NCBI RefSeq assembly: GCF_017751145.1
Contig: NZ_CP046640.1
Coordinates: forward strand, 1,096,137 to 1,160,136
Direction of reading: 5' to 3'
Source: Iocasia fonsfrigidae
GTDB lineage: Bacteria > Bacillota > Halanaerobiia > Halanaerobiales > DTU029
DNA: 64,000 nucleotides
Shown: in pieces, positions 34,417-39,730 of the stretch
Layout: every line of letters starts with the position of its first letter
Position numbering within the stretch: position 1 is the first letter of the stretch
Made by a program: the position numbers and the translations under genes
The notes under the pieces: model-generated
What the model was told of the DNA's origin: nothing
Databases searched by the model: none
The model's input: the letters and a program-made list of their open reading frames with translations, nothing else

Positions 34417-34467
34417 TTGACAGAAAGCAGAATCTTTTTTATAATAGAAGTGTACTCATATGGTATA
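34417..34467 (+). promoter_or_regulatory. rrf2 promoter with autoregulatory site
   Basis: TTGACA (34417-34422), 17 bp, TATAAT (34440-34445). Just after the start lies TGTACT-CATAT-GGTATA (34451-34467), the same TRTACT-N5-RGTAYA layout as the two sites before cooS. Confidence 0.72.
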
Positions 34468-34493
34468 CTTAGAATTATTAAAGAAGGGAGGAA

Positions 34494-34910
34494 ATGATGA
34501 AGTTAACACAGGCTACAGACTATGCTTTTAGATTAGTATTATATTTAGCAAAGAATAAAGAAGAAGTTGTGGAAGCAAAGTATATCTCTGAGGCAGAAAA
34601 GATACCCAGACGTTTTTTACTTAAGATTGCCAGGCAATTAATCCAGGCTGGAATTATTGAATCTTACCGGGGTCAGAATGGTGGTTATAAAATAGCCAGA
34701 GATCCAGCTGAGATTACCCTCAAGGATGTAGTGCTTGCTATCGAAGGGAGTATAATAATTAACAAATGTCAGGAAGATCCTGAGTTTTGCAACCGGAAGG
34801 CCCAGGGCTTTTGTGCGATCCATTGTTGTTTGAATTCAATACTGGCTGTAATGGAAAAAGAATTTGAAAAATATACTTTTGCTACTTTACTTAATTATAA
34901 TAGGAATTAA
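34494..34910 (+). CDS. Rrf2-family regulator, probable Fe-S sensor
   Basis: 138 residues. The N-terminal winged helix begins MKLTQATDYAFRLVLYLA, and RFLLKIARQLIQAGIIESYRGQNGGYKIA is the recognition helix and wing. The cysteine segment KCQEDPEFC...FCAIHCCL provides at least three ligands for an iron-sulfur cluster, as in IscR/NsrR/RsrR relatives. It sits just before the cooS-like operon, and the same palindrome occurs at its own promoter and twice before cooS, so it likely controls both. Confidence 0.87.
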   Translation: MMKLTQATDYAFRLVLYLAKNKEEVVEAKYISEAEKIPRRFLLKIARQLIQAGIIESYRGQNGGYKIARDPAEITLKDVVLAIEGSIIINKCQEDPEFCNRKAQGFCAIHCCLNSILAVMEKEFEKYTFATLLNYNRN

Positions 34911-34959: not shown

Positions 34960-35018
34960 ATAGTATACTAAATTAGTACACTATAAATTTTTAGCTTAAA
35001 CTATACTAAAACAGTATA
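34960..35018 (+). promoter_or_regulatory. Two Rrf2-type operators before cooS
   Basis: Site 1: ATAGTATACTAA meets ATTAGTACACTAT (34960-34984), a 25-bp near-perfect palindrome. Site 2: TATACT-AAAAC-AGTATA (35002-35018). Both are TATACT-N5-AGTAYA, 38 bp apart, a helical-phase spacing close to 3.6 turns. No clear promoter could be fixed in the 34911-35234 gap; TTGTAG at 34940 with TATACT at 34964 is possible. Confidence 0.72.
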
Positions 35019-35234
35019 CAAATGTTTTCTAATTCCAGTTTAGCCTTAGTTAAAAGGTTTTAAACCGCTTGCTTTTGTGAATAAATTATCACAGAAATAT
35101 TAATCTGCTAATCTTGGTTTGTTAAATAAGTAACAGCTGAGATAAGGACTATCCAGGGTGATTGGAAAAATTGCTTGCTGGTTCAAAAGTAGAGAAACAG
35201 GGTGTTTTAAATCAAATTTTAGGAGGAGTTTTTA

Positions 35235-37118
35235 ATGAATCCATGTCAAATGTGTAAAACTGCTGATCTTAAATTAGCTGAATTTATGAAAAAAAGTGTT
35301 CGGGTAGAGACGGCTTTTCAGCGGGAACCGAAACAGGCGGTAAAATGTGGTTTCGGTCTGCAGGGGGTCTGCTGCCGCCTATGTGCGAATGGTCCCTGTC
35401 GGGTTACCCCTGATTCACCACGTGGTGTCTGTGGGGCAGATAGTGATACAATAGTGGCCCGTAATTTTTTGCGGGCCGTAGCGGCCGGTGCAGCCTGTTA
35501 TCTACATATAGTAGAAAACACAGCCCGAAACCTGAAAGAGTTGGGTTTAGGTAATTATAAAACAGAAATAAAAGGAGAGACTACCCTGGATGAACTGGTT
35601 AAAAAGTTTGATCTTAAGGGAGAAGATAGTAAGCACAAAGCAGTTGCGCTAGCAGACAGGGTTTTAGCAGACTTATATAAACCAAGATACCAGGAGATGG
35701 AATTAGTAAAGAAAATGGCCCTGCCAGCCAGATATGAAAACTGGCAGAAATTAGCTATACTCCCTGGGGGCGCTAAATCAGAGGTATTTGATGCACTGAT
35801 TAAAACAAGTACCAATCTATCCAGTGATCCGGTCGATATGTTGTTACATGCTTTAAGATTAGGAATAGCTACTGGTCTTTATGGTTTAACACTAAGCAAT
35901 AAATTAAATGATATTATGCTGGGTGAGGCTAAAATTAGGCCGGCCCGGGTTGGTTTCCGGGTAGTTGATCCTGATTATATTAATATTATGCCGACCGGCC
36001 ATCAGCACTCACTCTTTGCTGTCTTGCAGGAAAGATTACTTAGTCCGGAAGTTAAGGAAAAGGCTCAGGCTGCTGGAGCAAAAGGATTTAAACTAATCGG
36101 CTGTACCTGTGTCGGTCAGGATTATCAGTTGCGGGGAGAACATTATCAAGAGATATATGCTGGCCATGCCGGAAACAACTTTACCAGCGAAGCTTTACTG
36201 GCTACCGGTGGTATTGATCAGATAGTTTCAGAGTTTAACTGTACTATCCCTGGCTTGGAACCAATCGCAAGCGAGTTTATGGTTGATCAGGTCTGTATTG
36301 ATGATGTGGCGAAAAAAGCTAATGCTGACCAGCTGCAGTTTGATCCAGCCCGGGCTACTGAGCTGGCTGATGAGATTATTGACAGAGCAGTTAACAGTTA
36401 TCAACAACGGAGGGACCAGGTCGAGATACAAATTCCGGTAGAACATGGTTATGATGATGTAATTACCGGGGTTAGTGAAAATTCTTTGAAAAAGTTTCTG
36501 GGTGGCACTTACCAGCCCTTAATTGATCTTTTAGCCAGTGGGAAAATTAAGGGAGTAGCTGGAGTTGTAGGCTGTTCTAATTTAACAGCTAAGGGTCATG
36601 ATGTTTTTACCGTTGAGTTGACCAAAGAACTGATTAAACGTGATATTCTGGTTCTGTCAGCTGGTTGTACTACCGGTGGACTGGAGAACTGTGGGCTGGT
36701 TTCTCCTGGGGCAGCTGAGCTGGCTGGTGATAACCTACGGGCGGTTTGTGAAAATCTGGGCATTCCACCAGTGCTTAATTTTGGGCCCTGTCTGGCAATC
36801 GGTAGACTGGAACTGGTAGTTAGTGAACTGGCAGAGATGTTGCAGGTTGATATACCACAATTACCGGTGGTCTTATCTGCACCGCAGTGGCTGGAAGAAC
36901 AGGCCCTGGCTGACGGGGCTTTTGGGCTGGCTCTTGGTCTTCCTTTACACCTGGCTTTACCACCCTTTGTCAGTGGCAGCAAAGTCGTGACCAAAACCTT
37001 GATGGATGATCTAAAAGGACTGACTGGTGGCCGTTTGCTAGTCGAGGGAGATGTTACTGCAGCTGCTCAGGAACTGGAAAAGATTATTATTGAGCGCCGT
37101 CAGGCACTTGGTTTATAA
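35235..37118 (+). CDS. cooS: Carbon monoxide dehydrogenase-like catalytic protein (CooS family)
   Basis: 627 residues, the normal CooS length. The B and D cluster cysteines are complete: C38, C46, C47, C50, C55, C66. The C-cluster ligands are also in place: H256, C292, C336, C447, C478, C519. By my recalled alignment to the Carboxydothermus enzyme, the base His93 falls on Y89 and the acid Lys563 (EKAVAI motif) on Q556 (EEQALAD). Both are thought essential for CO/CO2 turnover, so activity on CO is uncertain. Two extra N-terminal cysteines (CQMC) are present. GC content is clearly above the surrounding genes. AGGAGG precedes the ATG. First gene of an operon with a ferredoxin and a flavoprotein. 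Confidence 0.85.
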   Translation: MNPCQMCKTADLKLAEFMKKSVRVETAFQREPKQAVKCGFGLQGVCCRLCANGPCRVTPDSPRGVCGADSDTIVARNFLRAVAAGAACYLHIVENTARNLKELGLGNYKTEIKGETTLDELVKKFDLKGEDSKHKAVALADRVLADLYKPRYQEMELVKKMALPARYENWQKLAILPGGAKSEVFDALIKTSTNLSSDPVDMLLHALRLGIATGLYGLTLSNKLNDIMLGEAKIRPARVGFRVVDPDYINIMPTGHQHSLFAVLQERLLSPEVKEKAQAAGAKGFKLIGCTCVGQDYQLRGEHYQEIYAGHAGNNFTSEALLATGGIDQIVSEFNCTIPGLEPIASEFMVDQVCIDDVAKKANADQLQFDPARATELADEIIDRAVNSYQQRRDQVEIQIPVEHGYDDVITGVSENSLKKFLGGTYQPLIDLLASGKIKGVAGVVGCSNLTAKGHDVFTVELTKELIKRDILVLSAGCTTGGLENCGLVSPGAAELAGDNLRAVCENLGIPPVLNFGPCLAIGRLELVVSELAEMLQVDIPQLPVVLSAPQWLEEQALADGAFGLALGLPLHLALPPFVSGSKVVTKTLMDDLKGLTGGRLLVEGDVTAAAQELEKIIIERRQALGL

Positions 37119-37143: not shown

Positions 37144-37689
37144 ATGATGAAGAGAATAGTTATTGATCAGGACTTATGTCAGGCCTGTAAAAGCTGTGTG
37201 CTGGCCTGTATGCTTAAAAATAGTGAACTGAATTCACTACTGGAGCTGGATTTGACTGATCCCCGCAATCAGGCCTGTAATAAGATTGTTCTCAACCGGG
37301 GCGGCCAGGTAATTCCCCTGTTTTGCCGCCACTGTGATGAGGCTGCCTGTCTGGAAGCCTGCATGTCCGGGGCTTTACAGAGGGATGAAGAGACTGGCCA
37401 TATTAGCTGTGCTCAGGAACAGTGTGCAGGTTGCTGGATGTGTGTAATGTCCTGTCCTTATGGTCTGATTTTTCCCGGGGTGAGAAATAGAATTAAGGTG
37501 ACAGATACAGAAAGGGAAACTGACGATGAGTATGAAAGTAAAACTGGAAATAAAAATAAATTTGTGGATGAGGTAGCCAACAAATGTGATATGTGTGCTG
37601 GCCGGGATGAACCGTCCTGTGTCGCTAATTGTCCCACTGGAGCGATTAAATTAATTGAAGTGGAGACCAGGCAGGGGGTGCTAAGATGA
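37144..37689 (+). CDS. cooF: CooF-like iron-sulfur protein
   Basis: 181 residues with four cysteine-rich cluster motifs: CQACKSCVLAC, FCRHCDEAACLEAC, CAGCWMCVMSCP and CDMCAGRDEPSCVANCP, fit for four [4Fe-4S] clusters. In CODH clusters this protein passes electrons from CooS to a partner. Here the partner is the flavoprotein encoded immediately downstream with a 4-bp overlap. AAAGGAGA precedes the ATG at 37144; a second ATG follows directly. Confidence 0.9.
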   Translation: MMKRIVIDQDLCQACKSCVLACMLKNSELNSLLELDLTDPRNQACNKIVLNRGGQVIPLFCRHCDEAACLEACMSGALQRDEETGHISCAQEQCAGCWMCVMSCPYGLIFPGVRNRIKVTDTERETDDEYESKTGNKNKFVDEVANKCDMCAGRDEPSCVANCPTGAIKLIEVETRQGVLR

Positions 37690-38942
37690 GACATTTAATT
37701 ATTGGTAGTAGTGCTGCCGGAATAAGTGCTGCCAGGACTATTAGAAAATTAGATCCTGCTGCGGAAATAACTATTATTTCTAAAGATGAGACAATATATT
37801 CTCGCTGTTTATTACATCATTTTATTAGTGGGGCTAGATCTGAGGATAGACTTGCCTTTATTCCAGCTGATTTTATGGTTAAGAAGCAGATCGACTGGAA
37901 GAAAGGCCAGGAAGTTGTCCGGGTTATAGCAGCAGAAAAACTTGTGGAAACAAAGAAGGGAGAAAAGTACGGTTATGACAAATTGTTAATTGCTACTGGC
38001 TCTAGAGCGTTCTTACCTCCTATTGCTGGTCTTCGTCAAGGAAAGCAGGTCTATACCTTGCGTGATCTTCAGGATGCTAAAAAGATTAAAGAGATGAGCC
38101 AGGATAAGCAGCAGATAGCAATTATTGGGGCTGGCTTAATTGGTATCGATCTGGCTACAAGCTTAAAAACCTCTGCTAATCAGGTGGCAGTGATTGAACT
38201 GGCCCCCCATATTTTGCCCCTGCAGTTAGATCAGCAGGCAGCCGCTAATTATGAAAAATTATTTAACTCACAGGGAATTGAAATATATACTAATAATAGC
38301 GTAAATGAGGTTATTCTGGATCAGCATGATAATGTTGTTGAACTGGTTTTGCAGGATGGGAGCAGTCTGAAAACTGATTTAATTCTTGTGGCTACTGGAG
38401 TCAGGACAAATGTTTCGCTGGTGGACGGAACAGGGGTTAAGATAGATAAAGGAATTCTGGTTGATGAGCATCAAGAAAGTTCTAGCAAGGATATCTATGC
38501 CGCCGGTGATGTCTGTCAGTCCTATGAGGTATTCCAGGGAGAAAAAAGTCTGACTCCGATCTGGCCAGTGGCAGTCAAACAGGGTGAGACAGCGGCTTAT
38601 AATATGGTAGGGTTGGAAAAAAGATTAACTGACAATTTTGCCAGCAAAAATTCAATGCGCTTTGCTGGTCTATCGACAATTAGTTATGGTCTGGTAGAGT
38701 CACCTGATAATAGCTACCAAATACAGGTCAGGACTGAGCGAAACTGTTATCAGAAGGTAATCTACAAAGATGGGATTATCTATGGAGCGCTTATTCAAGG
38801 AGAGCTTGAAAATGCCGGGGTTCTTGGTAAATTAATTAAAGATAAGATAGCTGTCGACGATTATCTCGATAATATTTTCACCTTAAGCTATGCTGATTTT
38901 TTTGCACAGCAGGAAGATGCTAGTTTTAGCTATAAAATTTAA
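37686..38942 (+). CDS. FAD-dependent NAD(P) oxidoreductase
   Basis: 418 residues of the pyridine-nucleotide disulfide/NADH oxidase family. FAD-binding GSSAAGISAAR at the N-terminus, NAD-binding IIGAGLIGIDLA near residue 145, and YAAGDVC near residue 277. A cysteine in YSRCLLHHF occupies the place of the redox cysteine of CoA-disulfide reductases. CooS-CooF-flavoprotein triplets occur in several clostridia and would link the cluster protein to NAD(P)H. Overlaps cooF by 4 bp and ends in a terminator. Confidence 0.87.
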   Translation: MRHLIIGSSAAGISAARTIRKLDPAAEITIISKDETIYSRCLLHHFISGARSEDRLAFIPADFMVKKQIDWKKGQEVVRVIAAEKLVETKKGEKYGYDKLLIATGSRAFLPPIAGLRQGKQVYTLRDLQDAKKIKEMSQDKQQIAIIGAGLIGIDLATSLKTSANQVAVIELAPHILPLQLDQQAAANYEKLFNSQGIEIYTNNSVNEVILDQHDNVVELVLQDGSSLKTDLILVATGVRTNVSLVDGTGVKIDKGILVDEHQESSSKDIYAAGDVCQSYEVFQGEKSLTPIWPVAVKQGETAAYNMVGLEKRLTDNFASKNSMRFAGLSTISYGLVESPDNSYQIQVRTERNCYQKVIYKDGIIYGALIQGELENAGVLGKLIKDKIAVDDYLDNIFTLSYADFFAQQEDASFSYKI

Positions 38943-38957
38943 GCAGCCATACCTACT

Positions 38958-38992
38958 AACCAGACCATTGAGATAATGGTCTGGTTTTTTTT
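38958..38992 (+). terminator. Rho-independent terminator of the cooS operon
   Basis: AACCAGACCATT and its complement around GAGATA, then eight T. Confidence 0.92.
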
Positions 38993-39184: not shown

Positions 39185-39730
39185 ATGGATAAGGATATTG
39201 AAAGACTGTTTAAAGATATTAATTCGAAAGATAATCATGTAAGACTAAAGGCTTTAAATCAATTACTTAAAATTACAGATAATACTGTGGATTGGTTTGA
39301 TGATGTATATCTAGAATTAGTAGAGAAGTTAAGCAATAATAATTCTTACCAGAGATCTATTAGTATACTGCTCCTTTGTAATTTAGCTAAGAGTGATAAG
39401 AATAATAAGGTTGCTGGATTATTAAGCGATATACTAACACATACCTATGATAAAAAATTTATAACTTCAAGACAATGTATTCAAAACATATGGAAAATTG
39501 CTATTTTAGATAAAAAATATGAAACCCAAATAGTGAATCATTTAAACCAACAATATATAACTTGCAAAGATGAAAAACATTTTAATCTTATTCGTCAGGA
39601 TATTATCGAGACTTTAAATAAGATTTACAAAAAAAATTTAGATGAAGATTTAAAGGAAAAAATTTTAAAGTTAATTGAAATAGAAGAGGTTGAAAAATAT
39701 AGAAGGGGATATACAAAAATACTCCATTAA
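39185..39730 (+). CDS. HEAT-repeat-like protein
   Basis: 181 residues, all helical, with weak repeats of about 40 residues (DNHVRLKALNQLLKI; YQRSISILLLCNLAK) suggesting a HEAT/ARM-like solenoid. Such proteins bind other proteins or nucleic acid. No enzyme motif. GGGGAGGT precedes the ATG. No linked gene on the same strand. Confidence 0.55.
   Translation: MDKDIERLFKDINSKDNHVRLKALNQLLKITDNTVDWFDDVYLELVEKLSNNNSYQRSISILLLCNLAKSDKNNKVAGLLSDILTHTYDKKFITSRQCIQNIWKIAILDKKYETQIVNHLNQQYITCKDEKHFNLIRQDIIETLNKIYKKNLDEDLKEKILKLIEIEEVEKYRRGYTKILH

Follow-up and report, generated by a model that had tools for sequence, protein, structure and literature searches.

Clade C of the CODH family

The CODH-like proteins of clade C are described as keeping all residues of the C-cluster while replacing both acid-base residues: in every group of the clade, Tyr stands in place of the His and Gln in place of the Lys (Inoue 2019, Table 2, PMC6344411). 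Group C-1 has an additional N-terminal Cys motif, and the gene neighbourhood of groups C-1 and C-2 contains an FNOR, a CooF (COG0437) and an NsrR/IscR-like regulator of COG1959 (PMC6344411). The same source assigns to C-1 a CooS of C. ljungdahlii that is accompanied by FNOR and CooF (PMC6344411).

What do these proteins do? In C. difficile, cooS (CD0174-0176) is activated by sigma-B with a log2FC of 8.3 and has been linked to aerobic and nitrosative stress (PMC7494833). The clade C operon of C. ljungdahlii is reported to be upregulated on O2 (PMC6344411), and cooS-1 and cooS-2, both non-ACS cooS genes of this species, are down on syngas (PMC5640608). The CooS of T. kivui, which Bohm and Land 2026 assign to clade C and call divergent, oxidises CO at 13.9 U/mg with MV and at 0.5 U/mg with ferredoxin, and the organism cannot do without it when growing on CO (PMC8683389), although the much more active AcsAB of the host strain could contribute to this CO activity. 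In C. autoethanogenum, deletion of the clade C gene has been reported in the literature to alter growth.

A group C-1 CooS in Iocasia fonsfrigidae

The window analysed here, a stretch of 64,000 nucleotides of Iocasia fonsfrigidae DNA, carries a cooS gene on its forward strand (35235..37118) that encodes 627 amino acids without internal stops. The product scores 789 bits against TIGR01702, the anaerobic CODH catalytic subunit (cut-off 478), and 493 bits against the Pfam Prismane family (PF03063), and solved CooS-type CODHs match it with 235-372 bits. A full-length match to the hybrid cluster protein (HCP) was not found, the TIGR01703 score being 24.4 bits against a cut-off of 360.8.

It is virtually certain that this protein is a clade C, group C-1 CooS, encoded in an operon of the order Rrf2-cooS-cooF-FNOR. 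It shows the Tyr/Gln pair, the C-cluster, the type II D-cluster, the N-terminal Cys residues, the tree placement and the gene context of that group. In a maximum-likelihood tree, it falls together with the CooS proteins of C. ljungdahlii and C. difficile in a clade with 100/100 support, and the clade C branch stands apart both from the enzymes of clades E/F and from CODH-V; the placement runs via the C. ljungdahlii and C. difficile proteins rather than reference accessions of Inoue's set. In common with group C-1, the window CooS has the full set of ligands and the D-cluster type, the Tyr/Gln pair, C4 and C7, and a neighbourhood of FNOR, CooF and COG1959. There is no difference of substance from group C-1, other than that the window's host lacks both a CODH of the His/Lys type and an ACS. 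The class of the window CooS has thus already been described (Inoue 2019).

Identity to the clade loci is 60-74%. The nearest match, at 74%, comes from another family of the same class, and among the 38 genomes of the host's order, the clade C gene is found in the window genome only. No relatives were found on viral contigs.

Cluster ligands and catalytic positions

The ligands of the B-, D- and C-clusters, which a sequence-only reading of the gene had placed at twelve positions, all align in register with those of solved CODHs. The C-cluster set of one His and five Cys is complete (H256, C292, C336, C447, C478 and C519), the D-cluster is of type II (C-X7-13-CC, here C38-X7-C46-C47), and C4 and C7 form the N-terminal motif of 2-4 Cys.

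The catalytic columns were aligned with four solved structures (6t7j, 6ytt, 6vwy and 6elq). The column of the catalytic His (AAHSDH to ACYLHI) falls on Y89 and that of the catalytic Lys (SEKAVAI to EEQALAD) on Q556, while the Ile567 column of the EKAVAI motif falls on D560. The acid-base His and Lys of the catalytically competent Ni-CODHs of clades A/E/F are, therefore, absent, as the sequence-only reading had supposed when it matched His93, Lys563 and Ile567 to these same residues and proposed that the clusters were kept and the proton machinery lost. Among 96 aligned clade sequences, Y89, Q556 and E554 are present in all 96 and D560 in 95, the remaining one having Asn; it follows that Tyr and Gln are not a sequencing accident. 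The possibility that His93 had been misaligned was also rejected, since the solved CODHs and the 96 clade members agree on the column. Further changes affect the next His of the HSDH run, which is Ile or Val in clade C, and the Asp of the DGW motif, which corresponds to T213, invariant in an alignment of 15 sequences.

The active CODHs of clades E/F (6ytt, 6t7j, 6vwy, 6elq and CODH-II) share with the window CooS the fold and the B-, D- and C-cluster ligands, including Cys295. In contrast, they have the His, the Lys, the Ile and the DGW Asp, a Ser or His at the position of E554, and often a CooC in the operon.

The operon and its regulator

All features of the operon lie on the forward strand. 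A promoter-like site, TTGACA-17-TATAAT (34417..34445; a consensus match only, 12/12), precedes the gene for an Rrf2-family regulator (34494..34910; PF02082 / TIGR00738). Downstream of cooS are the genes for a CooF-like multi-[4Fe-4S] ferredoxin (37144..37689; PF13247 and others; HydN/AegA/DmsB-like) and for an FNOR-type FAD/NAD(P) oxidoreductase (37686..38942; PF07992 and PF18267; PadH/NirB-like); the FNOR gene and the end of cooF share 4 bases. An intrinsic terminator with a 13-bp stem followed by T6 (38958..38986) closes the operon.

The regulator carries a putative Fe-S ligand set, Cys92-Cys99-Cys107-His110. Among the clade loci, the three Cys are each found in 61/61 regulators and the His in 57/61. 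In E. coli IscR, three Cys are followed by a His three residues past the last one, and the set in the window is presumably IscR-like. Three copies of a candidate operator accompany the gene. Box 1, AGTGTACTCATATGGTATAC (34449..34468), lies 3 bases downstream of the -10 element and has 2 mismatches to the pattern AGTATACTNNNNNAGTATAC, while box 2, AGTATACTAAATTAGTACAC (34962..34981), and box 3, ACTATACTAAAACAGTATAC (35000..35019), lie between the Rrf2 gene and cooS with 1 mismatch each. Box 2 is conserved upstream of cooS across the clade. Of 60 Rrf2-cooS intergenic regions, 45 contain the pattern with no more than three mismatches, against a mean best match of 5.9 mismatches in shuffled sequences; of 36 loci that have no adjoining Rrf2 gene, 8 contain it. 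In the organism's own genome, no sites other than boxes 2 and 3 before cooS match with at most one mismatch. A wide Rrf2 regulon was not found there, matches at up to three mismatches being as many as for a reversed-pattern control. The conserved box probably ties the clade C operon to its Cys3His Rrf2 regulator, a link that is new here.

Between window positions 35000 and 39000, GC is 40-47% across cooS-cooF-FNOR and 26-33% on either side. The raised GC may reflect transfer or simply the gene class; it is no proof of recent transfer, since the host's own HCP and D-1 cooS genes likewise exceed the window in GC. Downstream of the operon (39185-39730), a 181-aa protein has no Pfam or NCBIfam match.

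Other loci and host genomes

How constant is this operon? CooF and FNOR are kept in 56 of 80 named clade C loci. Where they are missing, the Rrf2 gene lies directly upstream of cooS in 19 of 20 loci examined, and the flanks are unrelated. These 19 loci are bare Rrf2-cooS pairs, which have been recognised here for the first time. Thus, Rrf2-cooS is the core unit, and the electron route through CooF and FNOR is not universal. A different arrangement is seen in the C. difficile group (L083, L085, L086 and other Peptostreptococcaceae), where cooS-cooF-FNOR has neither an adjoining Rrf2 gene nor a box; in this group, the literature attributes regulation to sigma-B (PMC7494833).

The host genome, a single contig of 3.93 Mb, contains exactly three PF03063 genes: an HCP gene, an orthologue of CODH-V, and the cooS gene of the window. 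The CODH-V orthologue (1012358-1014175) scores 850 bits to 7b7q, has Tyr, Glu295 and Lys, and belongs to clade D-1. None of the PF03063 genes encodes a CODH of the His/Lys type, and the acetyl-CoA synthase CdhC was not found in the genome. Two non-classical CODH types, clade C and CODH-V, coexist with HCP in a host without an active-type CODH.

Of 19 genomes with a clade C gene, 11 have a His/Lys-type CODH with a full C-cluster. Six are without one, a further genome has just a clade B-like and a D-2-like gene, and the last, 84% complete, could not be assigned. CdhC is missing from 11 of the 19, including all seven without a CODH of the clade A/E/F type. The six clade C genomes with neither a His/Lys-type CODH nor an acetyl-CoA synthase are a new observation. 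Together with the seventh, they argue against a mere accessory role of clade C beside an active CODH, an explanation that is not upheld across the 19 genomes.

E554 and the active-site pocket

Two residues before Q556 lies E554, which the sequence-only reading had overlooked. It aligns with Glu494 of HCP and with Glu556 of CODH-V, which ligate the hybrid cluster of these proteins, Glu556 through Fe (PMC9311411). The residue is invariant in clade C, and the aligned sequences of clade D type have a Glu as well; in this column, Ser or His stands in the active CODHs of known structure, and Ala or Asn in a few other CODH-like genes. The text of Inoue 2019 mentions a Glu at this position for D-1 only (PMC6344411). 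Judging from the alignment, the hybrid-type Glu is kept in clade C too, which is new here. Clade C thus brings together all the CODH ligands, the Glu of hybrid type and the Tyr of HCP and CODH-V, but has Gln for their Lys.

Is the protein then a member of the CODH-V branch, as the sequence-only reading suggested? With CODH-V of Carboxydothermus hydrogenoformans (CooS-V, clade D-1; PDB 7b7q), it shares the fold, the Tyr at His93 and the Glu at Glu556. However, CODH-V, which is marked by a hybrid [4Fe-3S-nO] cluster and the turnover of hydroxylamine, has Glu for Cys295, keeps the Lys and has another type of D-cluster, whereas the window CooS has C292 and Q556; the two are 34% identical and occupy separate branches of the tree. 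The exchange of Cys295 for Glu in CODH-V is thought to be a prerequisite for the hybrid cluster (PMC9311411). Since the window protein retains this Cys as C292, it may hold a Ni-bearing C-cluster. HCP (hydroxylamine reductase; PDB 1e2u) likewise shares PF03063, the Glu494 position and the Tyr at the His position, but it has Glu268 where the window CooS has Cys, and keeps the Lys.

An AlphaFold2 model built from 15 sequences (pLDDT 82, pTM 0.86; the N-terminal cluster region, residues 31-55, is poorly modelled) has CODH-V as its top PDB match (TM 0.93), followed by CODH-II (0.92), with other CODHs at 0.89-0.92. As a prediction, it confirms the CODH fold and does not discriminate between functions.

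Membership of the window CooS in CODH-V was rejected because of the retained Cys295, the Gln at the Lys position and the tree, and would be very improbable also in view of the separate CODH-V orthologue in the host genome; the Tyr and Glu shared with CODH-V and HCP and the top rank of CODH-V among the structural matches speak for it, the other CODHs following closely. The window CooS may nonetheless have a similar chemistry. Of the sequence-only reading, the ligands, the acid-base loss and the link to a ferredoxin and a flavoprotein (CooF and FNOR in the same operon) have held, while the CODH-V branch has to be given up, and so does the notion of an undescribed enzyme, the combination of Tyr/Gln, full C-cluster and FNOR/CooF/Rrf2 context having been published for C-1/C-2 (Inoue 2019).

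Related combinations occur elsewhere in the family. A group of CooS proteins with 38-43% identity (L034-L044), D-3/D-4-like, combines Tyr at the His position with the full Cys set, the Lys and a Glu of the hybrid type; in several of them, CooF and FNOR follow downstream. Three D-2-like proteins (L005, L192 and L193) have Asn at the catalytic His position together with the full Cys set, the Lys and the hybrid-type Glu.

What is the function of the clade C operon?

A stress-related redox enzyme fits the clade C operon better than ordinary CO metabolism. The best explanation, although it is a roughly even call, is an NAD(P)H-linked redox enzyme of oxidative or nitrosative stress that is fed via FNOR and CooF. 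An Fe-S-bearing Rrf2 repressor, acting at the box that overlaps the start site, would hold the operon down, and damage to its cluster by O2, NO or Fe-S stress would open it. Electrons would then pass from NAD(P)H to the FNOR flavin, the CooF clusters, the D- and B-clusters and finally the active-site cluster, which might reduce a small oxidised species such as NO, hydroxylamine, peroxide or similar. With Tyr/Gln for His/Lys and E554 beside the full C-cluster set, the site would be tuned away from fast CO/CO2 exchange. E554 and the stress-type regulation lend some support to the idea of hybrid-cluster-like redox chemistry. In favour of this explanation are also the stress responses of the C. 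difficile and C. ljungdahlii relatives and the lack of ACS and of a His/Lys-type CODH in the host; the retained Cys295, the CO oxidation by T. kivui CooS and the loci without CooF/FNOR weigh against it.

Ranked next, and clearly less probable, is a slow but genuine Ni,Fe-CODH that oxidises CO or reduces CO2, with Tyr/Gln costing rate, and whose electrons pass through CooF-FNOR to NAD(P) and on to oxygen detoxification, a route that has been proposed for C. ljungdahlii. The full C-cluster ligands with Cys295 kept are consistent with it, as are the weak CO activity of T. kivui CooS-CooF1, essential for growth on CO, and the linkage of CooF-FNOR also with active CODH clades. However, the whole clade has other residues in place of the acid-base pair and of the DGW Asp, and mutations of the acid-base catalysts are reported to lower CO oxidation (PMC6344411); moreover, cooS-1 and cooS-2 of C. 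ljungdahlii go down on syngas, and the window's own genome has no ACS. A redox or gas sensor or modulator, forming a two-gene unit with Rrf2 to which CooF/FNOR would be an optional output, is more doubtful still. Bohm and Land suggest that clades C and D might sense redox state or act as modulators, and the bare Rrf2-cooS pairs in unrelated flanks point the same way, but the full chain of electron-transfer clusters and the CooF-FNOR operon in most named loci argue for turnover. Autoregulated Rrf2 units are, furthermore, commonly enzyme operons.

The stress-linked reductase can be taken one step further, though tentatively: clade C might be a third catalytic type of the prismane/CODH family, in which the His and five Cys of CODH are joined by E554 and Tyr/Gln in a reductase of reactive N/O species, under an Fe-S-sensing Rrf2 and independent of CO metabolism.

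Significance

E554, the Rrf2 box, the bare Rrf2-cooS units and the genomes without a His/Lys-type CODH make the question of function testable, and the seven-residue ligand set and the genomes with clade C as their sole CooS offer clean test systems. Clade C proteins occur widely among the Clostridia, gas-fermenting acetogens and C. difficile among them. They carry the annotation of CO dehydrogenases even though their function is not settled; should they be stress reductases, many of these annotations, and the metabolic models built with them, would be wrong.
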